Source: Quercus robur
Lineage: Eukaryota > Streptophyta > Magnoliopsida > Fagales > Fagaceae
DNA: 64,000 bases
Reading direction: 5' to 3'
NCBI RefSeq assembly: GCF_932294415.1
Contig: NC_065545.1
Location: 42,384,327 to 42,448,326 of the forward strand
The stretch's first letter is position 1. Each line of letters opens with the position of its first letter. The notes under the pieces were generated by a model. It made no database searches and was not told where the DNA came from. It worked only from the letters and a program-made list of their open reading frames with translations. Shown here piece after piece: positions 16,871 through 62,500 of this stretch. Both the position numbers and the translations under genes were made by a program.

Positions 16871-16975
16871 TGTGGGCTGGACCCACGGGGCTATGATGCA
16901 CCCAACAATGAATAGATAAACATAAAGGATTCTCACAAAAGGTATCCAGAGGAGTCCCTGCAACCTGATCCTAAA

Positions 16976-18410: not shown

Positions 18411-18441
<31 letters not shown>

Positions 18442-19263
18442 GTATGTATGTATTAATTATAAAATCCAACCATGTAATGTCTTACTTCAATGTAACAATT
18501 TGCCGTGTTACAGTATTTTGTATTGCCTCATGTATATAACTATGCTTCTTTGCTTTTCCTTACAAGCTGGAGCTCCAAAACATAGGAAATTTTTTGCTTT
18601 ACATTTGCATTCTAACAAAAGGTATGCACTTTGCAGAGTATTGTTGCTGGAGGCAGTGACACTAGCACAGTTACTCTAACTTGGACAATAGCGTTATTGC
18701 TAAACAACCGCCATGTGTTGAAGAAGGCCCAAGATGAGCTTGATGTCCAAGTGGGCAGGGAAAGAATTGTAAACAAATCAGACATCAGTAAGCTAGTCTA
18801 TCTCCAAGCCATAGTTAAAGAGACATTACGTTTGTATCCCGCAGCTCGACTATCAGGACCACGTGAATTCACTGAGAATTGCATTATAGGTGGTTACCAT
18901 GTTCCAAAAGGCACTCGATTAATCACAAACATATGGAAAATCCAAACAGATCCACTCATTTGGTCAGACCCATTAGAGTTCAAGCCCGAAAGATTTCTCA
19001 CCACCCACAAGAATGTTGATGTTAGGGGTCAAAATTTCGAATTGCTCCCATTTGGAAGTGGTAGAAGAGTATGTCCTGGAATATCTTTTGCCCTTCAAAT
19101 GGTTCACTTAGCATTGGCTAGTTTTCTACACATGTATGATATCTCAATTCCCTCAAATGCAAAGGTTGATATGACTGAGACAATTGGTCTCACAAACAGC
19201 AAAGCCACCCCACTTGAAGTTCTCATCAGACCTCGCCTACACCTTCCAAGCTTTATGGATTAA
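16976..19263 (+). CDS. CYP82-family cytochrome P450 (copy 2, start codon ATC)
   Basis: Haem-thiolate monooxygenase of the CYP82 family, normally ER-anchored and acting in specialised metabolism; the substrate cannot be told. Two exons: 16976-17923 and 18637-19263 (524 codons), phase-0 intron of 713 bp. Exon 1 carries the membrane anchor, a hinge '[17 protein letters not shown]' and the helix C region '[11 protein letters not shown]'. Exon 2 carries the I-helix 'AGGSDTS', K-helix 'KETLR', 'KPERF' and the haem loop '[10 protein letters not shown]' (Cys about residue 462). There are no internal stops. Oddity: the codon aligned with the ATG of copy 3 is ATC (16976-16978), and the next in-frame ATG is at 17174 (codon 67), past the anchor. 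The LINE scrap upstream may have displaced its promoter. It could be expressed from a non-AUG start, be a fresh pseudogene, or be a base-call error. Confidence 0.8.
18018..18212 (-). mobile_element. MITE-like segment in intron of CYP82 copy 2
   Basis: Read on the minus strand it shows the family B pattern: 'gcgtttagcattgg' at the start, then 'tttttgctacaattctcac' and 'tactattcattg', as in 10864-11031 and 29430-29630. Ends are approximate. It explains part of the extra intron length relative to copy 3. Confidence 0.4.
18413..18441. repeat. (TA)n/(T)n microsatellite in intron
   Basis: Alternating TA followed by a T run within the intron of CYP82 copy 2. Confidence 0.8.
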
Positions 19264-20104: not shown

Positions 20105-20805
20105 AACTTATCATGTTACAAACTTGATTCAAATTATAGTGTCATGGAATTTGCCAATCACAAAACATCAACATATAATATAACAATTTTTTTTTTGTTT
20201 TACATGCAAGATATATATTCATTGCATTCACATGAATCACATGTTCTTTTGATTTAGGGCATAGCCCTCCCACTTTTGTCAAAAGAATAAATTTAAAGAC
20301 AATTTTTTCCACAACTTGCTAAAGTGATAGGTTGTGAGTGGTGAAATTAAAAATGATATTAATGATGGGTTCATATATACGTGATATCTACCGCTCAGAA
20401 CTTGCGGCTCAAAACTCTACATGAAAAGGTTGTGTTCTCCTACTCTTTGGAGGGCCAACTTATCACATTACAAACTTGATTCAAATTATAATGTCATGGA
20501 ATTTGCCAATCACAAAACATCAACATATAATATAACTTTTTTTTTTTTTACATGCGAGATATATATTCATTGCATTCTCATGAATCACATGTTCTTTTGA
20601 TTTAGGGCATAGCCCTCCCACTTTTGTCAAAAGAATAAATTTAGAAACACAATTTTTTCTACAACTTGCTAAAGTGTAGGTTGTGAGTGGTGGAATTCAA
20701 AATGATATTAATGATGGGTTCATATATACGTGATATCTACCACTCAGAACTTGCGGCTCAGAACTCTACATGAAAAGGTTGTGCTCTCCTACTCTTTGGA
20801 GGGCC
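20105..20805 (+). repeat. Tandem duplication, about 350 bp x 2
   Basis: Copy one (20105-20456) and copy two (20457-20805) both run from 'aacttatca(t/c)(g/a)ttacaaacttg' to 'ctactctttggagggcc' with scattered substitutions and a T-run length change. No coding capacity. Confidence 0.9.
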
Positions 20806-21249: not shown

Positions 21250-21344
21250 TATCTTTTTTTAGAAACAAACACACACTACACACTTAAGAGGGAGAGAAAA
21301 AATTGATAGGTATCTAACTAGAGGCAAAACACTCTGTCATTTAA

Positions 21345-22150
21345 ATATATGCCACACAAGTCAATTAGAAAGAAAATGATATATCATGGAATGATATTTA
21401 TACAAAACAAGTAGATGACTGAGAAAAGTACTTGAGATTGTTTCAAACAAAAGAAAGAAAAAACCAAAATGGATGCCCACATAGAGTCTGGACTTCACAG
21501 CGCTAGCGTTCAGTGCAGACCCTACAATTTCAATCATCATTTGTTTCAGAATATATATTTAAATATAAACCACACAAGTCTATTAGAAAGAAAATGATAT
21601 ATCATGGAATAATATTTATACAAAACAAGTAGATGACTCAGAAAAGTATTAGAGATTGTTTCAAACAAAAGAAAGAAAAAACCAAAATGGATGCCCACAT
21701 AGTGTCTGGACTTCACAGTGCTAGCGTTCAGTGCAAACCCCACAATTTCAATCATCATTTGTTTCAGAATATATATTTAAATATAAGCCACAAAAGTCTA
21801 TTAGAAAGAAAATGATATATCATGGAATAATATTTATACAAAACAAGTAGATGACTCAGGAAAGTACTAGAGATTGTTTCAAACAAAAAAAAGAAAAAAA
21901 CCAAAATGGATGCCCACATAGAGTCTGGACTTCGCAGTGCCAGCGTTCAGTGCAAACCCCATAATTTCTATCATCATTTGTTTCAGAATATATATTTAAA
22001 TATAAGCCACACAAGTCTATTAGAAAGAAAGTGAGATATCATGGAATAATATTTATACAGAACAAGTAGATGACTCAGAAAAGTACTAGAGATTGTTTCA
22101 AACAAAAGAAAGAAAAAACCAAAATGAAAAGTACTAGAGATTGTTTCAAA
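21345..22150 (+). repeat. Tandem array, 218-bp unit, about 3.7 copies
   Basis: The anchor 'gtagatgact' recurs at 21411, 21629, 21847 and 22066 (periods 218, 218, 219). Units share 'accaaaatggatgcccacat' and 'ggacttc(a/g)cagtgctagcg'. The last unit is cut short and its first bases are repeated again at 22129-22150. Copies differ by only a few substitutions. Confidence 0.9.
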
Positions 22151-23988: not shown

Positions 23989-24048
23989 AGCTTACAGATT
24001 TCATTAGAAAGATATCCATATATAGGACTCCAGCAACCTTAGCCTAAA

Positions 24049-25892
24049 ATGGATTTTCTTTCACCTTCCCTATATTCCGCCATAGCTGGACTTATTGCTA
24101 TAATTATTTTCTCCCACTATCTTCTAAAGAGGTCAAGGGTTGGTGTAGCCAAAACAGTACCTATTGCTCCTGGTGCATGGCCTGTAATTGGTCACCTCCC
24201 TCTGTTAGGGGGAACCCAACCTCCTCACCTAACTTTGGGAGCCATGGCTGACAAGTATGGACCACTTTTTACTATCAAGCTTGGATTGCATCCAGCTTTG
24301 GTGGTGAGCAGCTGGGACATGGCCAAAGAGTGCTTCACCACCAACGACATGGCCGTGTCATCGCGACCCAATTTAGTAGCCGCAAAACACATGGGCTATA
24401 ACTATGCCTTGTTTGCATTTGCACCCCATGGTCCCTATTGGCGTGAGTTGCGTAAAATAATCACGTTAGAGCTACTATCAACCCGTCGGCTTGGCCAGCT
24501 TGCCTATATTCGAGTCTCTGAAGTTGAGATGTTCTTGAAAGGTCTATACAAACTTTGGACCAAGGAAAAGAACGAGCCAGGCCAAATTTTAGTGGAGTTG
24601 AAGCAATGGTTTGGGGACATGAGTCTCAACGTGATTCTTAGAATGATTGCTGGAAAGCGGTACTTTGGTGTTAATCATGATGTTGTTCAGGAAAAAGAGG
24701 CACGGTGCTGCCAAAAGGCGGTGCGGGATTTCTTGAATTTACTGGGTTTGTTTGTGGTGTCGGATGCAATTCCATATCTTAGGTGGTTGGATTTGGGTGG
24801 ACATGAAAAGGCCATGAAGAGAACTGCAAGAGAGATTGACAACATTCTTGGGGAATGGTTGGAAGAGCATAAGCGAAAGAGAGTCTCCGGTAAAACTAAA
24901 GAGCAAGATTTCATGGACGTAATGCTTTCGGTCACTGATGGAGCAGACCTTGGAGGTTATGATCCTGACACAGTCAACAAAGCCACATGTTTGGTATGCG
25001 TGCTTCCTCTCTTAAAAAAGAAAAAAAATAATAATATGTCTAAATACACAACAAATTTCACATGATTGATGTATGATAAAAGAGATATCATAGCAGTCAA
25101 GAAAGTATTTTTGCACTAATCACTTTCTATCACATTAAAAATGTGAAAACATTTATTAAATTTGTCATGCCTATAGTATTTTTGTGTTTTTAAACCACTA
25201 AATCGATATGGATTGCTTTGTTTCACTGTATCATTTGGACAAGAATAACAATTTTCATTATGCAGAATATGATCGCCGGTGGAAATGACACCATTGTAGT
25301 AACCTTAACTTGGGCAATATCACTATTGCTGAATAACTGCCATGTATTGAAAAAGGCCCAAGATGAGCTTGACGACCAAGTGGGCAAGGAAAGAATTGTA
25401 AACGAGTCGGACATAAATAAGTTGTTGTACCTCCAAGCCATAGTTAAAGAGACTTTACGTTTGTATCCCGGGGCCCCACTATCAGGACCACGTGAATTCA
25501 CCGAGGACTGCACCATAGGTGGTTACCATGTCCCAAAAGGCACTCGGCTAATCCCAAACCTTTGGAAAATCCAAACAGACCATCACAAATGGTCCGACCC
25601 ATTAAAGTTCAAGCCAGAAAGATTTCTCACCACCCACAAGGATGTTGATTTTAAGGGGCAAAACTTTGAGTTTATCCCATTTGGAAGTGGTAGAAGAATA
25701 TGCCCCGGAGCATCTTTTGGAGTTCAAATGGTGCACTTAGCACTTGCTAGTTTTTTACACATGTATGACATTTCTACTCCCTCGAATGTAAAGGTTGATA
25801 TGACTGAGAGCTTTGGAATCACAAACTTGAAAGCCACCCCACTTGAAGTTCTCATCACACCACGCCTGCACCTCACGAGCTTTATGGATTAG
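24049..25892 (+). CDS. CYP82-family cytochrome P450 (copy 3, intact)
   Basis: ER-bound haem monooxygenase of the CYP82 family, which oxidises specialised metabolites such as phenolics, furanocoumarins, terpenoids or alkaloids in different plants; this substrate is unknown. Exons 24049-24993 and 25266-25892, phase-0 intron of 272 bp, 523 residues, the usual family length. N-terminal anchor about residues 9-26, hinge '[14 protein letters not shown]' (about 38-51), helix C '[11 protein letters not shown]', I-helix 'AGGNDTI' (319-325, keeps the catalytic Thr although the next residue is Ile), ExxR in 'KETLR' (377-380), PERF (432-435), haem loop '[10 protein letters not shown]' with Cys461. The start is supported by the anchor and by a TATA box 61 bp upstream. 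The last 51 bp of coding sequence plus 42 bp of 3' flank are duplicated in tandem after the stop. Confidence 0.95.
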
Positions 25893-31881: not shown

Positions 31882-34800
31882 TTTTTTTTTATTTTTTGAG
31901 AACCCAAACCATGAGGCCCAGGGAGGAAAACTTTTATTAAGGAACATCAGATAACAGAAGAGGAGCTATGTCCTCTGGTACGTCCTCAAGCCAAACAGCT
32001 AGGCCCGATAAAATTTTAGCCTTCTTGGCGAGAGCATCAGCAACTACATTACAGTTGCGTTTAACATGAATGAAATGACAAAAATCAAAATCTGCAGCTA
32101 GAGTCCTGATATCGTCTATGATGTTTCCGTACTCCGCTGACGCTGAATCGCCTTGGATGAGAGCCTGAATGACCATTGCAGAATCACCTTCGAAGAGAAC
32201 TTGTCTAAGTCCAATTTCTTTGGCGAAGAGGACCGCCCTTCGACATGCCAACACTTCCATTGCTGCAACTGAAGTAGAGAGGGGTGTTGGAACTGAGAGA
32301 GCACCAATTGCATCGCCCTTTTTGTCTCTGATGATCACGCCAATCCCAGCTGAGGAGCTTGTTTTGAAAACTGCCGCATCGAAGTTGGCTTCGTAATACG
32401 GGAACTCTGGAGGGTGCCACTGAGTTGAGACCGCAAGAGATGGTGGTTCATCTGGGACTTCTTGAGCTATCACGAACTCCTGAAGAAGAGAACCTGCTCT
32501 TGGGATGATATTGGTTACCGGTATTGCTGGACGCCCAAATTTCAGAGAATTCCGGCGGTTCCATATTATCGATGCTGTCATGATGAAAATCTCCTTTCTG
32601 TAATCGTCCTACACCTGCAAAAAACAATCCAATTAAGCGTTAAAGGATGACAGGCGGGCCTAGGCAGCAAGAAGAGTCCAAGACAGAGTGCGCCAGACTA
32701 CTTCCAGCTTGCTGCACGCCCACAATGCATGAAGGGTGTCCTCGGGTTCATTTGTGCACTGCTCACAGAGGTCGATGGTGCTGATATGTCTGTGCTGAAG
32801 GGGGGAGGGCATTATTACAAGCACGCCAGGTGAAATGTTTCACTTTGTTTGGCACTCTCAAAGACCATAAACCCTTCCAAAATTTCAACTGGGGATCAGG
32901 GGAAGAACTACCTGCCTCACCATTATTATCCAAGGCAACCAACATCTTGTAGGCACTTTTAGTTGAAAAAATACCATTAGGGGTCAGACCCTATGTAATG
33001 TCATCAGGAGGCATTCTAAGACTCAAAGGGATCCCCAAAATCAAAGAAGCTTCATGGGGGAGGAAAAGCCTTTGCACCACATCAGTATTCCATATTCCCA
33101 ATTCATGATTGATCAAAGAGCACACCCTTGTTTCGGCCTGGACTGAAGTAAGGGGTGATTTAGCAACTCTATTGGACTTAATCGGAAGCCATCTGTCCTC
33201 TTTTATTCTAACTTCTTGACCATTCCCTATTCTCCACACCATACCCCTACGGATCACATCTCTAGCTCCTAGAATACTCTTCCATGCGTATGAACCAATG
33301 GTAGAGTCTTTGGCATCTAGAATTGAGCAATCCAGGAAAAATCTTGCTTTGAACACCTTATGGCAAAGGGAGTTTGGGTTATTTATCATGCGCCACACTT
33401 GCTTAACCAATAATGAGTCATTAAACTTCTCAATCTCTTTGAAGCCCACACCCCCAACTTCTTTGGCCTCACATAAGCGCTTCCAATTCACCCAATGAAC
33501 CTTCCGACTATCTCCATTATATCCCTACCAAAATTTTCTAATCAAGACCTCCAACTCCTTCACCAACCCCTTAGGGAGTTTGAAACAACTCATAGTGTAC
33601 GTGGGGATGGCCTGAATCACCGATTTTATCAACACTTCTCTGCTTGCATGAGAAAGAATTTTTTCTTTCCACCCTTGGAGCTTCCTCCAAACCCTCTCTT
33701 TTAGGTAGACGAAACTTTGTTTCTTAGCTCTCCCCACTAAGGCCAGCAAACCTAAATATTTTTCATATTGCCAAATGGCTGGTACTCCAAGGAGCTGCTG
33801 GATATTGCTCTAAACCTGTGGAAGAGTATTAGAACTAAAGAAAATATTGGTTTTCTCTCTATTAATTTTTTGCCCCCACCCTCTTTCATAGATTGCTAAC
33901 AAATCCAAGATAGTTTGGCATTCTTCCTCCTTGGCTCGACAAAATAGGACACTATCATCAGCAAAGAAAAGATGGGATACTTTAGGACCATTATGACAAA
34001 TCGACACCCCATTTATACCACCCTGCACTTTAGCTTTTTTTTAACAAGCCCTAGAGACCAAGAGAACAAAGTAGAAAAAGGTATGGGAAGAGGGGGTCAC
34101 CTTGTCTTAACCCTCTAGTGGGTTTGATGTTACCCATGGGTTGGCCATTCAAAAGGATAGCATAAAAAATAGTTGACATACAGGACATAATAATTTTGAT
34201 CAAACTGTCAGCAAACCCCAAATGCCTCATAACTTTCTCCAAGAAAATCCATTCCACCCTATCATATGCCTTACTCATATCCAGTTTTAAAGCCATATAA
34301 CCTAGTTTCCCTTGAGTCTTTCTTTTTAGGTAATGGAGAGTTTCAAACGCCATAAGTACATTATCTATAATCAACCTCCTCGATAAGAAAGCACTTTGAG
34401 AATCAGAAACAATATTGGGCAACACTTGTTTAAGCCGATTAACCAACACTTTTGAGATAAGTTTGTAAATCACATTACACAGGCTTATCGGTCTGAAATC
34501 GGAAACTCGTTTATGATTTTTGATTTTTGGAATAAGGGAAATAAAGGTGGCACTAAGGGAGTCATGGATAACACCCATATTAAGAGCATTAAGGACAATT
34601 TTGGTCACATCATCACCCACAATTTTCCAAAAAGACTTATAGAAGATAGGGGACATACCATCAGGGCTAGGAGAGTGGTGGGTGCCATTTGTTTAAGTGC
34701 TTGGTGGACTTCCTCAGAAGTGAACTCACGAGTGAGTGTTGCATTCATGTCATCTGTGATTGAGGGTTGGATTCCACATAAAATTTCATCAAAGCCTGAA

Positions 34801-37540
34801 GGATCTGATGTGGTGAACAAGGTGCCAAAATAGTCCTCAATGATCTTTCCCATTCGGCCTTCCTCCATTTACCAGGTACCTGAATCATCCTCCAAACTTG
34901 CAATATAATTCCTTTTGTTTCTTTGGTTCGCTTTACAATGAAAAAACCTGGTATTTTGATCACCCTCTTTTAACCAATCTAGTCTTGACCTCTGCCTCCA
35001 CATACACTCCTCCCTCTTCTTAAGTTTCTCAATCCTAGACCAGAGCTCAAAAATATGCCTAGGATTGTTTCGGTATCCATCAGATTCCTTGGCTTGCTTT
35101 AGATCTTTAAGACTTCGCTGTAGGGTAATCCGGACATGCCCAAAAGTATTTCGGTTCCACTCCTTAAGACCCTCCTGACAAGACACAATATTTTGATTAA
35201 ACTTATCCACCAAACCAGACCACCTAGCACTCTTCCAAGACGTTTGGATGACTTTCTCACAGGAGTTGTCCTTAAGCCACATGGCTCCAAAATGGAAAAG
35301 GCGACCGTTTCTATAGAACCTGTTCACTTCAAAATCCAAGCCAAGGAAAACCGGTTTATGATCTGAATGGAAGCAATCTAAATGGTGGACTCTGATAGTG
35401 GGGAAGCGAAGGATCCAATCAACTGTAGCAACTCCCCGATCAAGCCGAACCCAAGTATTGTGGTTACCCAGTCTCCTATTGCACCAAGTGAAGGGAAAAC
35501 CATTAAAACCCAAATCTTTATAAAAATCCAATGCCTCCCTGAAATTTAGCATATTCCATTTAGGCCTATCCAATCCTCCTTGTTTCTCTTCAGCTAACAG
35601 AATTTCATTGAAATCACCAAAAACCACCTACAGATAATTGCTTTGTTGACTCAAAGCTTTAAGCAGAGACCAGGAGTCTTCCCGGCTAGCAGTGTCAGGG
35701 TCTCCATAGAAACCCGTGAACCACCAGGCATCATCTACTCCATGGTTAATGAAAGCATCAATGTGATTATCAGAGTAGGTTTGGATATCCAAACTAATCT
35801 CCTCCCTCCACAACAAAGCAAGACCACCTCCTCTATTAATACGTGGAACCACAAAAATATTACGAAATTGCATACAACGACCTATTCTCTCCATTGAAGT
35901 TTTCTCAAGTTTTGTTTCCATTAAGAAAACAATTTTGGGATCTTTGTTGCTAACTAAAGCAACTAGTTCATCTTTTGTCTAGGGGTTCCCAAGCCCCCGA
36001 CAGTTCCAACTTAAGCAACTCATTGCTGGCAGTGGTGCTGGAAACCAGCCACCACCTGAAAATTTTCCTTATTCTCAATATCACAAATGTCCATACATTG
36101 CCTTTTACCACCCTGTTCATCACCAAATTCTAATCCTGGTCTACGGTCAAAGTCCATCAGAATTGGTGCAGCTTCATTCTCTTCATTACTGTCACAAAGC
36201 AACTTGGTCCATTTCCTAGTTCGCTGTGCAGGGATCAGTGGAGATGCCACATTAGTGCAATCACCCAAAGGCATGGGTGGAAGGTTGTTTGCATGGGACC
36301 CGACGTTCTCCATGCATGGGAATGAGTTTGCACAAGACTCCTTATTTTTTTTGCTCACATTAGGACCCTCCTCATTATTAATCTTCAACCCCCTCAATAT
36401 CCCTTACCATGGTCACGAGACTACCAACCACAACAATATTCTCATTCCCTAAATCTCTAACCGATGCAACCTCAGACTGACCAGTGGAGGAGTGAACTTT
36501 GCTTCCTGGTTTCCTCCGCCATGGGGCTTGTGATCGTGAAGCCCCCAATATTACAGTGACAGATTTCTTAGCCAAGCGAACCGAATCAGCCCGAAGCCAT
36601 TCGCCAAACTATTGGTCCTCCTTCCTTAGATTACCCTTGCCATAGAGCCATCCCTTGCAATCTCTCTCACCATGAGTCACTCGGCCACACCAGTAACAGA
36701 AATTTGGGAGTAGTTCGAACTTGAACCCCACCTAACCAATCTGTTTACCTTCTGCCTATAGCTTCCTACACCTCGGAAGAGGTTTTGAAATATCAATGGA
36801 CACCCTCACCCGAAGGAATTCATTGCCTACACCATCATCCTTTGGGTCAGCAATTTCCAACACCTTCCCTATTGTTTTACCCACTAATTTGCCGGTGGAT
36901 TGGGTTAGAGATCTCTCAGGTACATTGTGAATTTGAACCTAGAAAGTAACTCTACCAAACTCCAGCAATGGCACATTCTCAATCTCTGAAACCCGTTCAA
37001 AAGCAACCATATGCTTATCATACAACCAAGGCTCTAACTCTAAAACCCTCTCCATGTCAAGCCCTTCTTCAAAATCAAAAACAAGAATGTTATCACCCAG
37101 ATCACCGATTTTTACCTCTCCTTTCAGTTTCCACAACGGTTTGAAGGTGCGCCCCACTACTTCCACGTTCAGCACCCTTTTAGTGAAAAAACGACCAGCC
37201 AACTTGTTGATCTCCTTAACATCGTCCTTTGAAACTTCTACACCACACTCTTCTTCCTAGTTTAGTGAAAACTGGGACCACATGTCCGCCAGACCATCCA
37301 TTCTGCAGTTTTAACCACTACGAACATAGAGAAACACAACCACTAATAGACTAAACAAACACCACCACGGGTTCACTCCGACCTAACAAGAGCAGCGATG
37401 CTTGGAGGGGACAGGAACCTAAACTGCATAAGGGACGAAAATTCTACAGGAAGCCAGAGAGGAAAACCCTAACCCTAGCAGCTAGAGAAACTCCATTATT
37501 TAGATTTAAACGTCTAAATTAAAGTAGATGAATATCAAAA
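31882..37540 (-). mobile_element. L1-type LINE with RNase H, near full length, broken
   Basis: Minus-strand non-LTR element of about 5.6 kb. ORF1 begins at 37301 ('MDGLADMWSQF', with an early TAG) and contains a DUF4283-type domain (36939-37202) and a zinc knuckle 'CYWCGRVTHGERDC' (about 36656-36698). ORF2 starts in an ATGA overlap at about 36022: endonuclease ('SWNCRGLGNP', 'VVFGDFNE'), reverse transcriptase ('GLRQGDPL', 'LFFADDSVLFC'), zf-RVT (about 32763-32945) and RNase H ('EANFDAAVF', 'LFEGDSAMVIQAL', 31937-32430). At least three in-frame stops and several frame changes in ORF2 make it dead. The 3' end is an A-rich tail (plus-strand T run, 31881-31896). TTAAACTT occurs just outside both ends (31873-31880, 37541-37548), a possible short target duplication. 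Confidence 0.9.
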
Positions 37541-37647
37541 TTAAACTTGAGATAAATGTTTGAAGGGTAATTCTACGGTACCCCCCCAAAAAAAAGGGGG
37601 TACGGTACCCACTAGTAAGTAACCTGCTATACCAGGTTACTTTTTTC

Positions 37648-39305
37648 TCACATTTGACGATTCCATCTTCACATTGTGCAATTCCAACATCACATGTAAC
37701 AGTTTTTTTCTCACATTTGGTGGTTCCCTTACTTTTTTCTCACATTTGATGGTTTCATTCTCACATTGTGTTGTTCCAACATCACATGTGACAATTCTTT
37801 TCTCACATTGTGTTGTTCCAACATCACATGTGACAATTCTTTTCTCACATTGTGTGGTTCTCTTACTTTTTTTCTCACATTTGATGGTTTCATCCTCACA
37901 TTGTGCTGTTCTAACATCACATGTGACAGTTCTTTTGTCACATTGGGTGGTTCCCTTACTTTTTTTCCCACATTTGACGGTTCCATCCTCACATTGTGCA
38001 GTTTTAACATCACATGTGACAGTTCTTTTCTCACATTTGGTGGTTCCCTTACTTTTTTCTCACATTTGATGATTCCATCCTCATATGTGCAGTTCTAACA
38101 TCACATGTGATAGTTCTTTTATCACATTGTGCAGTTTCCTTACTTTTTTTTTCTCACGTTTGACGGTTCTATCCACACATTGTGCGGTTCCAACATCATA
38201 TGTGATAGTTCTTTTGTCACATTGGATGGTTCCCTTACTTTTTTCTCACATTTGACGGTTTCATCCTCATATTGTGCAATTCCAACGTCATATGTGACAG
38301 TTCTTTTCTCACATTTGGTGGTTCCCTTACTTTTTTATCACATTTGATGGTTTCATCCTCACATTGTGCAATTCCAACATTACATGTAACAGTTCTTTTC
38401 TCGCATTTGGTGATCCCCTTACTTTTTTTCTCACATTTGACGATTCCATCCTCACATTGTGCAGTTCCAACATCACATGTGACAGTTCTTTTCTCGCATT
38501 TGGTGATTCCCTTACTTTTTTCTCACATTTGACAGTTTCATCCTCACATTGTGCAGTTCCAACATCACATGTGACAGTTTTTTCTCACATTTGGTGGTTC
38601 TCTTACTCTTTTTTTTTTTTTTCACATTTAACAATTTCATCCTCACATGTGATAGTTCTTTTGTCACATTGAGTGTTCCCTTACTTTTTTCTCATACTTG
38701 ATGATTCTATCATCACATTATGTAATTTCAACATCACATGTGATAGCTCTTTTATTACATTTTGTGGTTCCCTAATTTTTTTCTCACATTTGACTGTTCC
38801 ATTCTCACATTGTGTAGTTTTAACATAACATTTCACAGTACTCTCGCCACATTTGGTGGTTTTTTTTTTCTCACTTTTGATAGTTTCATCCTTACATTGT
38901 GTAGTATTAACATCACATATGACTGTACTTTTGTCACATTCATTGGTTCCTTTATTTTTTTTCTCACATTTGTCGGTTCCATTCTCACATTGTGTAGTTC
39001 TAACATCACATGTGACTGTTCTTTTGTCACATTTGGTGGTTTCTTTTTTTTCTTTTTCTTTTTTCTCACATTTGATGGTTTCATTATCATATTAAGCAGT
39101 ATCAACATCACATCTAACTGTACTTTTGTTACATTTGGTGGTACCCTATTTTTTTCTCACACTTTACAATTCCATTGTTATATTGGGCAGTACCAACATC
39201 TCATGTGACCGTACTTTTATCACATTCAATGGTTCCCTTATTTTTTTTTTCTCACATTTGATTGTTTCATTGTCACATTGGATAGTATTAACATCACATG
39301 TGACA
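37648..39305 (+). repeat. Higher-order satellite, about 92-bp unit, about 18 copies
   Basis: Each unit is four related blocks that all begin TCACA: 'tcacatttgacggttccatcc' without its last base, 'tcacattgtgcagttccaac', 'tcacatgtgacagttctttt' and a longer 29-bp block 'tcacatttggtggttccc' plus 'ttactttttt'. Spacing of the 'catcacatgtgac' block is 90-95 bp. Divergence rises toward the right end. Long open frames on both strands result from the repeat, not from a gene. Confidence 0.9.
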
Positions 39306-40095
39306 AAAATACCCCCCTGAAACTCTCAAAAATTATTGTGATACCCTTAATACCTAAAAAATGATTGATATACCCTTTGAACCTAGAAAATGTCTGAAAT
39401 GACCATAAAACTTAAAAAATGACCGAAATACCCTCTAATACCTTTAGAACCTAAAAAATGACCTAAATGACCCTGAAATCTATAAAAAGTCTGAAATGAC
39501 CTTGTAACCTAAAAAGTAACTAAAATATCATTAGAACCTAAAAAACAACCGTAATGCACTTGAAACCTAAAAAATGACCGAAATACCCATAGAACCTTAA
39601 AAATAACCGAAATGACCCTAAAACCTAAAAATAACCGAAATACCCTTAGAACCTAAAAAATGACCCTGAAACCTAAAAAATAACTAAAATGACATTGTAA
39701 CCTAAAAAGTGATTGAAATACCTTTAGGGCCTAAAAAATAACCGTAATACACTTGAAACCTAAAAAATGACCGAAATACATTCGAAACCTATAAAATGAC
39801 CAAAATACCCCCCCTGAAACCCTCTAAAATTACTGAAATACCCTTAGAACCTACAAAATGACAGAAATGACCGTGAAACCTAAAAATGACCGAAATGACC
39901 CTGAAGGTTGAAACCTAGAAAATGACTGAAAAACTCTTAGAACCTAAAAATGACTGTAATACCCTTGAAACCTAAAAAATTACCACAATACGCCTAAAAC
40001 CTAAAAAATGACCAAATTACCTTTAGAAACCTATAAAATGACTGAAAGACTTTTGAAATCTAACAAATGACCAAAATACCTCCTAAAACCTTTAT
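39306..40095 (+). repeat. Minisatellite, about 29-bp unit, about 27 copies
   Basis: Consensus 'acctaaaaaatgaccgaaat' followed by 'acccttaga', with 'gaccctgaa' variants alternating. It abuts the 92-bp satellite directly at about 39305 and shares no obvious sequence with it. Copies are 75-90% alike by eye. No coding meaning. Confidence 0.85.
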
Positions 40096-40231
40096 TTGCA
40101 AGACCAAAATGACAATTTTTTTTTTTTTTTATATAATCACTCTACTTGCTTCCCCCCCCCCCCTTAAAATTCTCGGTGGAACTTATAAATTTTCTTTTGT
40201 CATTAAGTTGTTATATACTTATTTAAATTTA

Positions 40232-41063
40232 GGCTGTGTTTGGTTTAATGTAAAATATTTTCCGGAAAATTTTATTTTCCAGAAATGTTATTTTTGGAAA
40301 AGGAAAATATTTTCAAGTGTTTGATTGCATTGTAAAAATTATATTAGAAAATAATTTTCAGTGTTTAGTAATATTCTGAAAATGCTATTTTCCTACAAAT
40401 TTTTCACACTTTCTTAGCCATTTTCTCAGCTTCCAAACAAATTTTATATCAGAAAATCCACCGCCACCCACAGAAAATCCATCACTATCCACACAAAACC
40501 CACCACCACACAACACAGAAACCACCAAAACGCCACCACCCACACCACCACAACAACAACAACAAAATCAGAGATCAAAGAGATCAAGTAGATTGGTGAG
40601 AGAGCAGATCAGCGAGATAGTGATCGGCGAGAAAGCAAATTGGCCAGAGAGTGATCGGCGATCAAGCATATCGATGACGATCAGACCCAGTTCAAAAGAG
40701 AGAGAGAGATCGAGAAAGAGAGAGATTGGCAACGCGAACTCGACGGCGCGATCTCACTGCTGCGTCTGGGGTTGGGCCGCTGCTCACTCTCCCTAATCTC
40801 TCTTCTTTCTCTCTCTCTCTCTCTACCGTTCCGCTGCGTTTGTGAGTCCTTCTTTCTCTCTCTCTTTCTCCCTTTGCGTGTCTGAGTTCTGGAAGTGATT
40901 TGAAGGTAAAATAAAAACAGAAATGCTTTTACAGGGTTAGAGGGCATATTTTACGGTCAACGGAAGTTATTTTCTGTTTGACCCAATTTTCCGGACCAAC
41001 CAAATAACCTATTTTACGGAAAAATATTTTTGAAATTAGTTTGAAGCCAAAATAAACACAGCC
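40232..41063. mobile_element. Harbinger-type MITE nested in the large element
   Basis: TIRs GGCTGTGTTTGGTTT and AAATAAACACAGCC, flanked by TTA (40229-40231, 41064-41066). The arms continue with 'aaaatattttccggaaaa' and 'ttttccggaccaacc'-type motifs. The middle has CCACCA and GAGA/CTCT microsatellites. 832 bp, non-coding. Confidence 0.8.
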
Positions 41064-42004
41064 TTAAAATATGATAAGTTATCTAAAAAAACCTATTTTG
41101 CACGCACGCACACAAGCATTTACAGGAGATTGTTTTAACTAATATATTTAGTAGTTAGTACCACAACTTAGTGCCCTAGTTTTGACCTAAACCTTATGAT
41201 TTTAAATTTTTTTAAGTTTTATTTTGAAATTCCTACAAAAAAACTTAGGGTTGTGTTTAGATGACAACATTTGGATTTGGATTTTAAATCAATGGATTTA
41301 AATGCCTTGATTTGAAATCCATTGATTTTAAAATTCCTTGTTTGAGTATTTTTATACAATGAAGGATTTGAAATTCATTATTTGAAATTCTATTGTTGGA
41401 ATACCTAAATTTGGATTTGGATTTGGAATTAAGATCATAAAATATTTTTTCCAATTATTTTTTTTCTTAAACCTTCTACATTTTAATTTTAATAATATTT
41501 TTAATAAATACATGAGGTAATGAAAAAGCCATTGACAACCCAATTCACAAAATGATAACTAAAAATCTGTCATCATAACCAACTAATAATTTGCTATTAG
41601 TAACAACTTGGGCTCGCAAAATATGAATTTATCATATAACTAATTGAATTGAGAAATCCCTATTTGAAATTCTATTAGAAATTTCCTCAACTACTTGCCA
41701 TGCCCTCTTTTTAAATCCCAGACAGAGTTATCCTTGCAAAGATCATGCCAACTCATTAAAACAACCAAGGCAATCATTAAACCCTAGAAGCTTATTTCTT
41801 AAAGTTCAAACTACTAATCACTATTGTTGGAATTTGGATGATTTAGCTACCTCTTTAGAAGGAGAAGGAAAGGCTTGCTACAAACAGAAAATTGGAAGAA
41901 CTCAACAAATTTTGATGTTCAGCAACAACGTATTCTTTGTTTTTGTCTAGAAGTTGATTTGACTGATACTGAACTTGAAAGAAGGTGCATGAAGTAAGAG
42001 CAAC
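41064..42004. other. AT-rich interior of the large element
   Basis: Repeated 'gatttg(g/a)a(a/t)tt' motifs at 41268-41440 suggest a decayed MITE. 41830-42000 has some codon-like sequence with stops and no recognisable domain. Confidence 0.4.
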
Positions 42005-43251
42005 TGTCACGACCCAAACCTAATACTTGGATTTGTGACCATGATTAGCATGTTAATATCAAGCTTGAACCTGATATTAACAAGAATCAACTAAAATTTT
42101 AAACAAAAGCTTTCCTCTTTCTTTTCATTGTTGTTTCTTTACTTTAATATATAATTTTTCACTTGATATTCAGAGCATTTACATTGTACTTCAAGGGATA
42201 ACTTAATCCACCAGTTATTCAATTTCAGAATTTCACATAATACATTTCTTAATGTATTAAAAGTACACAACTTTCATTAGATCCTAAAATACACAATACT
42301 ACAAAGCTAAGCATCAAACTTCCAAAATAGGGGCTATACTTTTAAAGCTAAAACCAATTCCTCCCAAAACTCAAATAAGGATCCCTCTGCTCCAGAATAA
42401 AACCTGTTGACTGAAAAAGTGGAAGGGGTGAGCTAAATAGCTCAATAAGGGTAAGTTACATGAGAATTTAATAAGAATGCATGTAAACCAAAGCATTTCA
42501 TTTTATAGATATTCAGATAGGAGAACATCTTTTAATTTCATGCAGAGGAATCAAGAGCCTAAGGTCGAAGGAGCTCAGACTTGGGCGCTGGTAATACCTA
42601 TACCAAATATCAAAGCTTATTATTATTAATTCTACCTTAGCATAAACTTATACATACATCTTGAAAACCTAGCTCTCAAAATCAAGGAAATCCTAATCCT
42701 ACCTCAAAGAGATTCCCCAAACACAAGATACATATATCAAAAAACATGATTCACATAACCAAAGAAAAATCATTATATTCACATTCATATTCAATCATAT
42801 AATGAAGGAAACACATTCAATTCAATTGCAAGGGTTTAATAATTCATTAGGTTTTTACAGCTTGTCTACCAAATTCAAAGTAAATGATTTTTTCCAAAAT
42901 GACATTTTCTAAATAACCAAATGGCAGAGTATTAACAAGCCATTCTTTGGTTTTCTTACTTGCATTAACATTCTTAATTAAGTAACCAAAATACCCCTGG
43001 GCAGCCATAAGGCAACATAGAACTCAGTCATTGCAATTACAATTTCGTGTAGTCATTTAGCTAGGGTTAAACTTAAACTTAAAACAAGGACATAGCTTCA
43101 ATCAGCACATGAAAATTAATATTCACACTCTTCAAAGCTGAATCTTATAAGTTCAAGGAATTATGTATAAAAATAAATAAATCAGATTTCCAAAGATTGA
43201 ATAAGTACATAATCCTCATTAATTAACAATATAGTTTGTCGGGATATTACA
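42005..43251. mobile_element. LTR-like fossil within the large element
   Basis: Starts TGTCACGACCCAAA and ends GGGATATTACA (TG...CA). The 5-bp flanks are GCAAC and GCAGC, an imperfect duplication. No internal retrotransposon domains adjoin it, so it would be an old solo LTR. Family not determined. Confidence 0.4.
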
Positions 43252-44950
43252 GCAGCCCACACACAAACAATAAACAACATAGCAGAATAAAAAATCAAAC
43301 TTACCTCTCCTGCCATAAAGGACAAATATAACTAGCCCCCTTTTCTTTTTTCTTCATTTAAAAACAAAAAAAAAAAAAACAATAGTATAACTAGTTTATT
43401 TGCAAGAACAAAAACACAAAGTAAAACTTAACTTTGGTCTTCCAATTAGCAGCTTTCATAGTGACATAGGATATACCAAATTAGGCACTAAAGGTGGCCT
43501 ATAGCAAATTTATTTTAAAACCTACTATCATCAAAATGAACCCAAAAATTGGTTGAACAATATGAAACTTTAGTGCATGTTAACTCTCTACCTCTATAAA
43601 TACTAGTGTTGTCTAATGAAAATTGTATACAACAAAAAGAGAAAAAAAAAAAAAAAAATAGAATGAGAGGATGATGAAAAACACATCAACTAAACTAGGA
43701 CAATTAATCAAGAAACACATGTAATTAATCGTTAAGAGATCAAAAAAGTTGGACTTACCAGCCAAATATGTGTGTAACCCAATCGACCTTGTTTCCATAA
43801 GAAATTCAATACTTTCAAAACATAATCAGTCTCAACCTCTTATTTTACTCTTAACAAAAAGAAACCTTAAAGAATGAAATGTTGCTCCAAATGACATGAG
43901 AAGATGCATAGCAAAGACATGAAGTAAAGAATATTTTACTCTAATGGCTATAACTATGGTTACCTCTCTGCCTTGAGAAAAAATCTTTTAACTTACAACT
44001 GAGACCTATTGATTTCTATGCAAGTATTCTTCATGCATAATCATCAATTGTTCTGCCACCTGCCTAATTATCAAGAATCCAATAGCATATATGGACAACA
44101 AGTCCAAGCCAAAAAAAACCTATTTGTATCAAATAAGATCCAAAAGATTAAACTAGGTTCTTAATAAACAATCATTACCCAAAGAAATTCATTTCATTGA
44201 CCAACATAAAGCACGTCGCACCAAATATAGCTTGAAGCATAATATTACATTGAAGCATGACTTCTCCAACTGAACCATATATATTCCCTTGAAGGGAGCA
44301 GCCCTGGCCTTGCAATATATATATATATATATATATATATTCTCATTTAGAAGTCAAACCCAATTTAAGATGAAATTTACTCTACTAAAAAATAAGGACT
44401 AAAATTATAGTTGTACTTGGCAAAAACAAACTGAAGCTCTAACATACTGTATACAGCCAAATCAGCTACAATAATGGTGACTAGATTTAAGGCGATGTGA
44501 AGAGAGGGGGAGGGGGGGGGGGGGGGGGGGGGGGGAAGCATTATACTGAAAAGATAACAATACTAACAAGTATGTACTCCTAATAGACCATTAGAAAACC
44601 ATCCTATTAGCCATAATTATATTTCCTCTGTAATGGAGAGGTAATTAATGTTATTGCCAAGCACAAAAATGAGCTTGCAAAGTTTAATTGCTACATGATC
44701 AACATATTTGACTCCAGTCCTAAAAAATCCAAATATAATAAACATGACTAGCCATCTGAAAAAACAAACAAGAAGAGAACAAATCGGTTCAAACCTATAA
44801 AGTTTAGATAATACATGAACTCTCAATGTCTACCATCTTCGATTTCTATGTTGCTTCCGAAAAAACAAAGAAAGAATTTGGGGAAACAAAACAAACATGG
44901 CAATTAAGAGATTTCGCATATTTTATGGAATTAGGGATTTGATCCTAACC
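43252..44950. other. AT-rich interior of the large element
   Basis: No recognised coding sequence. Contains a (TA)n at 44316-44340 and a 24-base G run (44512-44535). 'cttacctctcctgccat' at 43301 would read as a splice donor on the minus strand. Confidence 0.4.
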
Positions 44951-45145
44951 TTCTAGTTCCACTATATCAAAGTGATTTTGATCTTTTTGAGAAACCTTCA
45001 CTGGTGAGTAAAGCCATGAGACAGAGACGGAGATCACCCAAGTGAGAAGAGAAGCGGTTTAAGAGAGGAGAACGTGAGAGAGTCGAGGGCACAGATGAAA
45101 AAGTATGTGACTGTTTTTTTTTTTTTTTTTGGCTTTTATACTAAA
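44950..45145 (-). promoter_or_regulatory. Minus-strand promoter and leader-like segment
   Basis: On the minus strand: a TATAAAAG motif near 45138-45131, a CT-rich leader, an ATG near 45017 opening a short frame ('MALLTSEGFSKRSKSL'), then a possible donor 'agaag/gttagg' near 44955. This looks like the 5' end of a transcription unit pointing into the element from its right TIR. It may be a captured host promoter; no gene is identified. Confidence 0.4.
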
Positions 45146-45286
45146 CCTGCTTGAACGGTAGTAGGTTTTTCATTAAAATAAAATAACGGTTAGGATTAGA
45201 GCAAGTAAAATCTATGGTTCTGATTTTAGCAGGTACCGTACCCATCAAAAAAATATATGGGTACAGTAGAATGACCCATGTTTGAA

Positions 45287-56574: not shown

Positions 56575-59500
56575 TTTTTCTTTGATAGGTAAGAAACATG
56601 TATATTCAATAAATTGCTAAATGCAAAGAAGCACTAGCATATCAAACGTACAAGAAAAGAAAGAAAAGTACAAACATAAGAGAAGAAGAACACTAAGAAC
56701 AAAGAAGAAGAGAGCTAAGGAAGAACGGAAGAGAATCACTAGATGTGAGTCCCCAAACCCTAACCCAATCAAAAAGGGAACTAGAAAAAAGAGTAAGCCT
56801 TTGGTCATCGGATTTATCCAAATTCTCAAATGTCCACTGATTACGTTCCTTCCAAATACACCACATCAGACACAATGGAACTAAATTCCAAATGTGAGAT
56901 GAACGCTTCCCCAACCAATTTCACCAGCTAAAAAGAATATCAGACTCCGTACTAAAGGGGACCCATGAAATCCCAAAGATTCTATATACAAAGCACCACA
57001 GTCGATAAGCCTTTCCACAACGTAACAACAAGTGATCCACTGTCTCCCCACAACACCAACACATAATACACCAATCAACAAAGTCGTAACCTTTAGACCT
57101 CATATTATCTCTTGTGAGAATCCTATCTCATGCTGCTGTCCAAACAAAGAAAGAGGCACGCCATGGTGCCTTAACCTTCCAAATACCTTTCCATGGAAAG
57201 ACAATGGAAGAAGAATCATGTAACTTGTGATAAAATGAGCGGATAGTAAAATCCCCTTTCTTTGTCAACTTCCATCTCATACAATCACCCTTAGTTACAA
57301 GGGGAAGACAAGTTGCCAAGAATCGAAAGAAATCATCCACCACATTTGCCTCCCAATCATAAGGACCCCGAATGAAGCGAACATCCCAAGTTCTCCTATT
57401 CTCTGCTCCTTGGAACAATAAAGATGATTCTATGGAAGCTTCTTTGTTTGCAACAAAAGTGTATAAGGTCGAAAAAGCCAACTGGAGAGGAAGATCTCCA
57501 CAAGTCTGTCCAGAAATTCACTCTATCCCCCATCTCAACCTTAAAGTGGACATTTTTGCAAACAATTTCCCATCCCATCTGAATACTTCTCCACATACCA
57601 CACCCATGAGCACCCCTTTCCAACTTAAAGGTCCATCCCCCCTAATCTTCCCCAAATTTCAAAGCTACCACCCTCCTCCACAGCCTATTCTCCTCGATCC
57701 CAAAACGCCAAAGCCACTTTCCAAGTAAGGCTTTATTGAACGTGGTTAACTTCCTAATACCCAAACTACCATCAGCCATAGACATGCACACCTTATCCCA
57801 ACCCAACAAATGTGTCTTAGTGTCACCCCACAAGAAGTCCCTTTGCAGCTTCTCAATTTTGTTCGCCACGTGTAGGAATGGTGAAAAAAGAAATAAAAAA
57901 TAAGTAGGGAGGCTAGAAAGCATGCTTTTAAGCAATGTCAGTCTGCCACCTTTTGACAACTACAACTTCTTCCAACCTACTAACTTTCTTTCAATTTTTT
58001 TCTAATATAGGGTTCCAAATAGAGGGGGCTTTATGGGACACTCCCAGTGGCATACCAAGATAAGTCATTGGCAAGGTCCTAACCCTACAACCCAATATCT
58101 CTGCCAAAGCATGCACATTATTTACCTTTCCTATAAGAACCATTTCGCTCTTAGCTACGTTAACCTTCAAACTTGTCACAGCTTGAAAACAAAGTAGCAA
58201 CAATCAAATTCGTAGGATCTGCTCTACCGCTGCCTCACAAAACAAAATGGTATCATCCGCAAACAGCAAATGTGAAACACATTCCCTTCTGCCCTTCCTG
58301 CCATTTGCCCTAAAGCCACTAAGAAATCCTGCCCCCTCCATTCTCTTCTCCATCCTACTAAACACTTCCATCATAATTAAAAATAACATGGGAGACAGCG
58401 AATCCCCTTGTCTCAAACCTCTAGAGCTTCCAAAGAAATTAGTTAGAGACCGTTGACTAACACAAAAAACTGCACTGTCGAGATACAAGTTCAAATCCAG
58501 CTGCACCATTTTTCTCCAAAGCCCATTTCCTTCATCAACTTCAGAAGTGCCTCCCAATTCACATTGTCATATGCTTTCTCAATATCTAACTTACAGATTA
58601 CCCTAGGAATCTTACTCTTCGTCCAGCTGTCCACACACTCATTGGCAATGAGAACTGAATCAAGGATTTGTCTACCTCCCATAAAACTATTCTGAGATTC
58701 AGATATCAGTTGATCTAACACCACTTTCAATCGATTTGCCAAAACCTTGGCCAAGATCTTATACAAGCTCCCCACTAAACTAATAGGTCTGAAATCTCAA
58801 ATGTTAGAGGCATCATTCTTCTTAGGGATTAAAACTAAAAAGGTAGCATCTAGAGATTTCTCAAATTTACAGTGCTGATAGAACTCTTCAAAAATTGCTA
58901 AAACATCACTTTCTACCACTCTCTAGCAATGATGGAAAAAGGCCATAAAAAAGTCATTTGGACCTAGAGCTTTATCCCCTTCCATATCTCTAACCACTTG
59001 TATTATCTCGTCCTTCTCAAACCTCCTCTCCATCCAGCCCCTCTCCGCCTCCTCAATTTGATCAAACTCTAGACCTTCCATAAAAGGTCTCCACTCTTCG
59101 GACTCTTAATACAGAGTTTTATAAAATTGAACCACCTGAGCAGCCACTTCTGCTCCTTCCTCATAAATCACTCCATCCACTTCTAAGAAACTCAAATGAT
59201 TATGCCTTCTATGGGAATTAGTCATCTTGTGGAAGAACTTAGTTTTATGATCACCCTCCTTAATGCACAACATTCTCGATTTCTGTCTCCATGAGATCTC
59301 CTCTAAAGAAAGAAGATGCTCTATTTGCGATCTCACTTCGTTTCTCTCAAACATCTCTGTTTCAGTGAGTCCAAGAACCCCATCCTTAGCGTCTAGCGAC
59401 TCTAAAGCCCCCAATAATTCTTTCTTCTTGCGGCCAACATTGCCGAATTCTTGGCAACTCCATTGAACAATGTCTTCTTTCAAAACTTTCAATTTTTTGG

Positions 59501-62500
59501 CAAACACATAACTAGGTGTACCTGAGAAAGAATGGTGATTCCACCATGAATCAACTCTATCAACAAACCCATCCATTTTCAACCAAATATTCTCAAACCG
59601 GAAGGGACTTTTCCCCCTCGCCATACCCCCTGCCTCTAAAAGAATTGGGAAATGGTCTGAGATAGGTCATGGTAGAATCCGCTGGATCACATCAAGAAGA
59701 CATGGTGGCTGGTTAATACCACTAGACCATGTATAACTCTCTCCCTCCAAAGGCAAGTCTATCAAGTTTGGGTCCTCGATAAATTCAGAAAATTTTTCCA
59801 TAGCCAAAGTAAGTCGAGATCCACCCCTTCATTCACTAGGGAAGCGAACAACATTAAAATCCCCAAAACATCACCAGGGAACATTCTAGTACTGCTGAAT
59901 ACCAACCAACTCATCCCACAAATAACCCCTTATATTGTTGTCATTTGGGCCATACACCCCTGTACATGCCCAAATAAAACCATCCTCCACTCCTTTCCAT
60001 TGAACCGACACTGAGAATGAACCCACCAGAACCTACTTTTCTAAAACCCTTCTATCCCACATAATCAAGACTCCCCCAGCCGTTTGATCAGCATCTAGAA
60101 CTGCCCAATCCACATATGAACAACTCCACAAACCCCAAACCATCTGTCTATCAATGCCGACAAGCTTTGTTTCTTGAAGGCAAATAACATCACACTTCCA
60201 CTCCCATAACAAATTTCTGACTACCAAACATTTATGGGTGTCGTTCAATCCTCTAACATTCCAAGACATCATTTTCAACTTCATTAATACTATCAATTCC
60301 CCATTACTTCTTTTACTACACTACCAACACCCTATCGCCCATCATAATTAACCAAGAAGATTAAATTCCTCAACTCTCTTTTCCCTTTACCCGTTGAGAA
60401 GGCTGCTTTTTGGTTAACCGTTGCTTTCTTCCGTCGTTCGATAACTACCTCTATCCCCCTTTCTAGACTTTGAAGATAGTCGATGCATAACCTCTCATGA
60501 CGGTTCATAGAAAGCTCAACCACTTTACTAAAACCTTGGATCCTATGCTTCATCCAACTTGAGACATCTAGCCTACTACCCGGACCCAACACCTCATTAT
60601 CCTTGTACATTTCCATCAACAAGTCCAGCCCCGGAAGAGCGATAGAGGATAGCGACTTACAGTTTGTAAAACTCTCCTCCTCACCCAAACAAGCTACTTC
60701 TGAGCTAGCCCCTCCCTCCTCCATCGAAACCCCCAGATTGGGCGGATCATTCTCAAAAACAACAATCTACCTAATGCACTTGTCATCCACCCCCTGAGAC
60801 AAATGCACTCCATTCCCACTTCTAGCCTTATCCACACCATAAACACCATTATCCACCAACCCAGCACCCATCATTCTAAGAAGGGCTGCCGTCAAGAAGA
60901 AACCCATAGAAATTGGCATAGCTACCTAATCGGCCTTACCCTGAAGCATAACAGAGTCACCAGAGCTGACCTCAGCTCTATCCAACACCATCGGAGTCAC
61001 TATGTGTCCATCGGAGCTAAACCCATCATAGGAACTACAACCAATCTCCATCGGAGCCACCCCAAGGCAAAAAGAACCATTCCCAACCACCATCTGAGGC
61101 ATCGGAGGCACCACTAGGCCGTCGAAGATGAACCCATCCAAATAACTACAAACAGCCTCTGTCCGACCCACCGTGAGGCTATCAGAGCTGGTTGGAGACT
61201 CTGCTTGACGATCTGCCACCTCTTCAGGAGGCGTCAGGGACTTGGGTTTATCTGAGGAGGCTTTTGCCGTTGTCACAGATGACTCGCCCATTACACAAGT
61301 GTTTGGGCTTGAGAAAATTGCCTCGAGTAGTTGGGTATATCCCAAACGAGGTTGGGCCAGCTTGGTTTTCACACTTAAACCCACAGTTTTCATTTTATTA
61401 CTTTCCCGTGAATCCCATTCACAATCAGAGCCCACCACAGGAAGTAAGTGAAACTGTGATCTTCTAAAGGGACCCACCACGTGTTCCCTTTGACTAACCC
61501 ACTTGGAATGCCTCAATCCACCTTTATTCACCTCAAGATTTGTGTGAACCCGTGACCCTCTTGGAGTACCCACCACCTGCTCTCTCTGATTTCTTTTCAC
61601 CAAATAGGACTCCTCAAACCACCTTTATAAGAATTCCATACCACCCTCCTTTTTCCTTCCCCATTTACCTCTATAGTCAATCATACTGCTGTCCAGTAAA
61701 GATTCCTCAAATCACGTTTATTTCCATAACCATGTACACTCCAATTTGACTTGAATTTCAATAGAGATCTCTTATTAATTCCTATTGGATTTTGCTCACC
61801 TAACTCTGTCTCAACATTAATGCCCTGCTCCCTCCTATCCCCTTCTCCCACCACCATCTTATCAGGCTTGCCCACTGGAAGATCCCCCATCTTGGCACCT
61901 AAACATCTCTGATTCATCACCAACTGTGTCATCTTCCCCTTGTCTGTGGTACCTAACTGCTGCTACTTTCTGTCCTCTACTTTTCCCTGATAGCCTTGCA
62001 CAGCTTCAGCAAAAGTTCTAAAGTTTTGAACCTTCAAATTATGCCTATGCACCTGAGGGATAAATTTTGGATGACCAGTTCCACCCACCACAAATTGGGA
62101 AGGATACAACATCTTTCTAAGTTCAAGCCCAAAAACCATCCAACCATTTTTCTCTTTGCCTTCAGGGATAATAATCGACCTCCTAGACCCGCCAACTTTA
62201 AGTTCAATCAATAGTAAGAATTGACCAGAAAAATTAGTGCTCTGTTGGAGAGTAAGCAATGTCATCGTTTCTGAATGTAAAAAACTGTTTGGAATTTGCC
62301 CCAACAACAATGTGTTCAATATTATCCATCAGCCATTGTGCTGCAATCTTGCCCATGAAGACTAATGTCACTGATCTCATAAAGTATTTGCCCCTCTCAA
62401 AAATATGTAGTGAGAAATAATGTCCCCCTTCCTCTACAACTAATTGAAAAAACTTGGATTCAATGAAAAATTTGCGAACTCCCCCCATGACTAATTGGAG

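Follow-up and report, generated by a model that had tools for sequence, protein, structure and literature searches.

A predicted Mutator-like element in oak and the recurrent one-sided satellite arm of its family

Comparison across the 785.7-Mb Quercus robur assembly confirms, at the level of sequence, that positions 37565–45277 of a 64,000-nucleotide stretch (C41:42384327-42448326, here called the window) form a single transposition unit, a predicted non-autonomous Mutator-like element (MULE) of 7.7 kb. To judge from its placement in relatives, the 92-bp satellite carried by this element is a recurrent one-sided arm of the family, not cargo. We hold the reading of this stretch as an element and as a member of a family with high confidence.

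Boundaries of the element and its family

The window element is bounded by GGGTAATTCTACGGTACCC at 37565–37583 and its counterpart at 45259–45277, which are identical at 17 of 19 bases, and a perfect 9-bp duplication, ATGTTTGAA, directly abuts both ends (Table 1). With both of its variable positions left open and up to three mismatches allowed, the end pattern matches the window at these two ends only; the shuffled-window control gave a mean of 0.07 matches, and two matches occurred in none of 100 shuffles. As a lone 9-mer, ATGTTTGAA is unremarkable (two occurrences in the window versus 2.0 expected), and its significance derives from its adjacency to the 17/19 inverted match. Among 40 sequences generated from an order-1 Markov model of the window, inverted 19-bp matches adjoining a 9-bp repeat, with partners no more than 20 kb apart, reached at best 12–15 identities, as compared with 17 in the window. 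A looser pair test (15 bp, at least 13 identical) returned two further, unrelated pairs within the window. The left terminal repeat contains TACGGTACCC twice as a direct repeat enclosing a GTACCC...GGGTAC inverted pair, and this layout is visible at nearly all 26 ends from 13 elements. In each of the 13 elements compared, 15–17 of the first 19 bp of the terminal inverted repeats are identical, and about 48 bp are alignable.

Throughout the assembly, the end pattern matched 374 places (178 + 196) at up to two mismatches, compared with three (2 + 1) for the reversed control, and at three mismatches the matches numbered 276 + 281 versus 39 + 46. Positions were listed for the first 100 of the 374 places, and 20 stretches (L009–L028) were fetched, five picked for facing ends and 15 for a perfect left end. 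Both ends are present in 12 of the 20, no right end occurs within 10 kb in seven, and L010 was cut without its left end. Perfect 9- or 10-bp duplications flank seven fetched copies (L009, L011, L012, L013, L015, L018 and L027; 5.1–9.4 kb) as well as the window copy; including a 19,572-bp relative described below, eight complete copies besides the window carry such duplications (5.1–19.6 kb). The first-pass annotation had read the paired ends and the 9-bp duplication as one Mutator-like unit and had proposed that ends never co-occurring at this spacing elsewhere would refute it; the search with the end pattern instead finds the ends face to face at similar spacing elsewhere, flanked by perfect 9–10-bp duplications in the eight other copies.

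The interiors of many family copies are unrelated to one another. By comparison, three siblings (L009, L013 and L025) match the window interior at 93.7–95.6% identity. L009 on C2 and L013 on C5 have different duplications but share 99.5% identity across 6556 bp and 98.9% across the satellite; such near-identity on different contigs indicates that the element moved recently with the array on board. A coincidental pairing of ends within ordinary repeat-rich DNA would accord with the expectation of two ATGTTTGAA occurrences per window and with the other weak inverted pairs beside 9-bp repeats, and the imperfect duplications of five of the 13 two-ended copies (L019, L022, L023, L025 and L028) also speak against the element reading. 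However, the 374 matches versus three, the perfect duplications at eight other copies and the whole interior common to the siblings refute a chance pairing, whose probability we consider negligible. Outside the host, the satellite and end patterns gave no matches in viral and prokaryote contigs, and the open-licence PubMed Central literature on oak, Fagaceae or subterminal-repeat topics yielded no description of this family.

The satellite arm and its occurrence beyond the elements

The 92-bp unit divides into three successive 21-bp subunits followed by one of about 29 bp, all four beginning with TCACAT, and the palindrome TCACATGTGA occurs 11 times in the window satellite. Among the 19 fetched copies considered (L010 excluded), 17 have an array that begins 56–101 bp inside the left end and extends for 290–2897 bp. 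An unselected survey covered 40 further listed ends, comprising the unfetched one-mismatch matches on C1–C3 and one on C4. Ends were typed as left (A at position 5) or right (C at position 5), and an array was called present at six or more TCACAT per 600 bp, against a window background with a mean of 0.29 and a maximum of 2. The satellite was found at 30 of 34 left-type ends and at none of the six right-type ends. The minisatellite comes after the array in 11 of the 20 fetched copies, one of these being weak. Several copies depart from a fixed left-end array and count against it: L020 retains only a remnant of about 70 bp, L026 (G000:C6:25291397-25301396) has its array behind tandem ends, and the left-type ends L047, L052, L070 and L076 show no array within 600 bp.

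The first-pass annotation had described an 18-copy satellite, a 27-copy minisatellite and a nested miniature inverted-repeat transposable element (MITE); the two tandem modules lie where it placed them, and the nested MITE is real. Its view of the two modules as unusual cargo did not hold up, since other family members, among them a relative with a transposase, contain both. A satellite private to the window copy was rejected on the recurrence of the array at a fixed left-end place across the family, and a foldback layout on the one-sidedness of the array.

A 38-bp satellite probe gave 653 + 601 assembly-wide matches at up to three mismatches and none for the control; 100 places were listed. 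On C1–C4, a correctly oriented left end was listed no more than 3.5 kb from 18 of the 23 exact-probe arrays; the other five lie at C1:13659045, C2:49698269, C2:54454539, C4:11958478 and C3:22646866, the last of these upstream of a transposase. On C35, eleven exact probe matches extend across 18.8 kb with repeating spacings of 1532 and 2763 bp, the sole cluster of such size among the probe places listed. Inside this cluster, the 2.2 kb read consists of satellite throughout, organized in a higher-order repeat of 1532 bp, and no family end was found in the 2.2 kb searched; the higher-order repeats of the block measure 1,532 and 4,295 bp. Samples at 16491000, 16495300, 16509200 and 16514000 contain the satellite and those at 16488000 and 16518000 do not, giving the block (G000:C35:16491000-16514299; L084, L086–L089) a length of about 23–30 kb if it is continuous between samples. 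The block could be element-seeded, an element with a giant arm, or a source of the satellite. The earlier suggestion that such elements could seed satellites is partly supported: the elements have taken the array to many loci, and a block of this length exists on C35, which may be either a product or a source.

A transposase-bearing relative and the descent of the window copy

The transposase fragment in L021 has 52 genome matches, one of which lies inside a 777-aa open frame on C1. This frame is part of a complete relative (C1:27961398 to C1:27980969; 19,572 bp) with a perfect duplication, ATTCATAAT, and the end GAGTAATTCTACGGTACCC. Its order is an end, a satellite of 20 92-bp units upstream of the transposase, the transposase frame, the 29-bp minisatellite, opposite-strand frames and the other end. 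The 777-aa frame matches FAR1 (PF03101, 1.8e-22) at its N-terminus and MULE (PF10551, 1.7e-28); its C-terminus has, by eye, CSC...CGH and a CCHC-like end, and Pfam at 0.001 lists neither SWIM nor CCHC. The transposase fragment itself (P0001) gave no MULE match in Pfam, only unrelated sub-threshold matches. Among six close transposase loci, that on C1 alone is fully open, and the exact satellite probe is located about 4–8 kb upstream on the same strand at at least five of the six (C1, C3, C38, C39 and C40). The opposite strand of the relative contains three frames: one of 296 aa with tandem peptide repeats that are 81 and 19 residues long, one of 228 aa that matches PMD below the curated cut-off, and an HMG-like one of 83 aa. 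The convergent pair of transposase and second gene also occurs on C39, C40 and C3. A 120-aa frame between the transposase and the minisatellite of the 19.6-kb element (L037:8999-9359) resembles the end of an aspartyl protease.

In agreement with the first-pass annotation, which had seen no recognisable transposase, genome searches with the family transposase fragment or the full transposase gave no match inside the window among the best candidates scored (130 of 130 for the fragment and 58 of 1003 for the full transposase). The six-frame reading of the window element covered 40100–45277, and the one window open reading frame scanned with Pfam matched no family and held no captured host gene fragment.

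Gene deletion from a parent plan is the simplest account of the window copy. The parent would have contained a 48-bp end, the 92-bp satellite arm, a FAR1-type MULE transposase gene, the 29-bp minisatellite, an opposite-strand second gene and a 48-bp end, and the window copy would be a shortened derivative that lost the genes and kept both ends, both tandem modules and the right arm. It was probably moved in trans by a transposase of the 777-aa type or a relative, duplicating 9 bp, with the MITE inserting afterwards. Indeed, three siblings show an empty site with a single TTA, indicating that the nested MITE, to which we assign a presumptive PIF/Harbinger-like label by its ends and TTA duplication, arrived later than the element. 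By comparison, the long terminal repeat (LTR)-like segment, which may be a solo LTR, predates the window insertion, as it is also found in three siblings. The body segment (Table 1) adjoins the transposase fragment in L012 and L021, and the right arm, judging from position only, may represent the promoter and 5' leader that belonged to a leftward gene since lost. Two observations run counter to simple deletion: the right arms of the window copy and the relative match only in the terminal repeat and in low-complexity runs, and in L021 and L012 the satellite is followed by the minisatellite, the body and then the transposase fragment, an arrangement that simple deletion from the order of the relative would not produce. 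Direct derivation of the window copy from the 19.6-kb element by deletion was rejected, since the right arms are unrelated save at the end, which makes this relative a family member and not the direct parent. The unrelated right arms and the module order of L012 and L021 call for either rearrangement or descent from a second parental lineage.

Table 1. Features of the window element, in window coordinates
Feature	Position	Strand	Basis
Left target-site duplication ATGTTTGAA	37556..37564	.	sequence
Left terminal inverted repeat, about 48 bp	37565..37612	+	sequence
Left-arm satellite, 92-bp unit, about 18 units	about 37637..39305	+	tandem-repeat analysis
Degenerate 29-bp minisatellite, about 27 units, second tandem module of the family	about 39320..40110	+	
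TTA, left duplication of nested MITE	40229..40231	.	
Nested MITE, 832 bp, ends GGCTGTGTTT...AAACACAGCC	40232..41063	.	TTA duplication; missing from three siblings
TTA, right duplication of nested MITE	41064..41066	.	
Body segment common to L011 (partly), L012 and L021	41256..41643	+	family comparison
LTR-like segment TGTCACGACCC...GATATTACA, flanks GCAAC / GCAGC	42005..43251	.	also in three siblings
Right arm, noncoding	43252..45229	-	
Right terminal inverted repeat, about 48 bp	45230..45277	-	sequence and family comparison
Right target-site duplication ATGTTTGAA	45278..45286	.	sequence

Other interiors of the family contain additional frames. L018:6599-7087 and L028:5659-6066 hold gene-like frames that are coiled-coil-like and leucine-rich-repeat-like by eye; they are possible captured host fragments and gave no curated Pfam match. 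L023 has a sub-threshold C2 match in Pfam, and an Ulp1-like motif in L022 was not backed by Pfam. In L010 (G000:C2:49678000-49687812), facing end matches 11.9 kb apart enclose a 1932-aa open frame that resembles a plant pararetrovirus polyprotein.

Elsewhere in the window, cytochrome P450 frames are clustered at 9733–10392, 16916–19263 and 24043–25892, and the two scanned match PF00067. Two regions resembling long interspersed nuclear elements (LINEs) occur on the minus strand at 31937–37256, just left of the Mutator-like element, and at 57128–62328, and one reverse-transcriptase frame in each matches PF00078. Tandem duplications outside the element are located at 21339–22126 (218 bp x 3.6) and 20105–20805 (349 bp x 2.0).

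A possible role of the array and comparison with known systems

VANC proteins bind short motifs in tandem arrays of VANDAL noncoding DNA and remove silencing (PMC5735166, PMC10398659). As described in the cited passages of PMC5735166, the array sites include the region upstream of the transposase gene, VANC contains DUF1985 and tandem peptide motifs, and VANDALs other than that of VANC21 use other motifs. Because the oak layout resembles this arrangement, we propose that the satellite may be kept because it offers closely packed binding sites to a protein encoded by the element, most likely the PMD/DUF1985-like opposite-strand protein, which would counter silencing as VANC does; otherwise the transposase or a host activator would bind. 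From the sequences compared, some cis-acting role of the array has about an even chance. That the array is a platform for the PMD/DUF1985-like protein acting against silencing is, by this analogy, possible but doubtful. It is decidedly less likely that the family has its own anti-silencing system outside the Arabidopsis VANDALs, in which the protein would bind TCACAT arrays and keep autonomous and gene-less copies open, and outgrown arrays would become free satellites such as that on C35. Several observations tell against a VANC-like function. The PMD match found in all four exons scanned reaches 26.4–33.7 bits, below the curated cut-off of 34.9, and DUF1985 appears weakly, at 0.003–0.09, in three of the four (relatives on C39, C38 and C5), with none listed in the first scan of the second-gene exon of the complete relative. 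The second-gene relatives keep open frames at 65–96% identity, with a dN/dS of 0.52–0.79 that is weak evidence of constraint, and the VANC21 motif YAGTATTAY has no site in the window element.

A serious rival is a passive array, in which an ancient tandem repeat close to the left end changes length by slippage and is carried by the element without serving a function; it falls only a little short of even odds. It is favored by array lengths ranging from about 0.07 to 2.9 kb, by siblings whose arrays differ (by stretches of 43–170 bp, the window array being the longer), and by units that are scarcely more alike within an array (identity 0.84) than between arrays (0.81). However, the array is present at 30 of the 34 unselected left-type ends whatever the interior, and its TCACAT core is better conserved than the rest: across 287 units, it is the best conserved of 21 six-base phases (0.943 versus 0.865 elsewhere; p 0.004 with CpG and T-run columns left out), although A/T columns alone give no significant difference (p 0.27), a result that weakens the case for a role.

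The array might instead provide transposase-binding or end-pairing sites that improve recognition of the left end, making a second protein unnecessary. We regard this as a serious rival but rather unlikely. In its favor, the array is directly inside the end, and its TCACAT subunits, spaced 21 bp apart, would all lie on the same face of the DNA helix. Variable numbers of short tandem repeats occur subterminally in Muta1-type MULEs (PMC5225508), and such a function has been proposed for foldback-like tandem repeats, with added binding sites in Galileo repeats cited in PMC4079207. Against it stand the one-sidedness of the array, absent from all six right-type ends, and the little or no array of L020 and four surveyed left-type ends, although these copies may not have moved without it. 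Capture of a host satellite by a MULE, with the C35 block as its source, would fit the length and higher-order repeats of that block and the lack of an end in the 2.2 kb searched, but 18 of the 23 exact-probe arrays on C1–C4 lie behind a family left end and C35 is the sole cluster of its size among the probe places listed, which leaves capture improbable.

Our comparison with known systems, limited to the cited parts of each paper, reveals partial likeness to several. Like Arabidopsis VANDALs, the oak family consists of MULEs with 9-bp duplications and noncoding arrays, including upstream of the transposase, that gain and lose units, and has a second gene with weak DUF1985-like and PMD-like signals and tandem peptide repeats. 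Unlike VANDALs, it has a transposase with FAR1, which the table in PMC6446971 does not list for VANDAL, lacks the VANC21 motif, and has 92-bp units in arrays of up to 2.9 kb. Muta1 and other Aedes MULEs (PMC5225508) similarly have palindromic-motif ends with tandem repeats just inside, and hundreds of non-autonomous derivatives in which the end region is retained while interior and repeat number vary; there, however, 9–15-bp repeats are located in long inverted repeats, whereas here 92-bp units form kilobase arrays on one side, and the genome is of plant type. The foldback element Tetris of Drosophila virilis (PMC4079207) shares 8–10-bp duplications, an apparently non-autonomous nature and internal repeats that also form longer satellites elsewhere, but its repeats occupy both inverted repeats, in contrast to the one-sided array and transposase-bearing relative in oak.

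As in the Jittery subgroup (PMC6446971), FAR1 is N-terminal; the Jittery C-terminus has SWIM or CCHC, seen here only by eye. An antisense PMD gene is also described for MUDR and others (PMC6446971), with the match here below the cut-off, whereas the table in that paper lists no PMD for the Jittery subgroup. L026 has, at 300–2980, five tandem copies of a 0.6–0.9-kb unit, each with a left end and 84–87% alike, recalling MULEs with tandem end repeats (PMC3310237); in oak, unlike in those MULEs, tandem ends are a side form in one sampled copy and single ends are the main form. The one-sided 92-bp arm of kilobase scale, together with the FAR1-type transposase and the antisense PMD-like gene, would constitute a new variant within this comparison.

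Tandem repeats within transposons are commonly dismissed as debris. In this family, with its hundreds of end matches, a one-sided satellite persists in copies that have no genes and also lies upstream of a transposase gene, beside a candidate partner gene. The family provides one system in which to ask whether VANC-like anti-silencing exists beyond Brassicaceae VANDALs, and it also bears on whether free satellites can arise from transposon arms. If true, anti-silencing together with outgrown arrays would link transposable element counter-defence to satellite birth.

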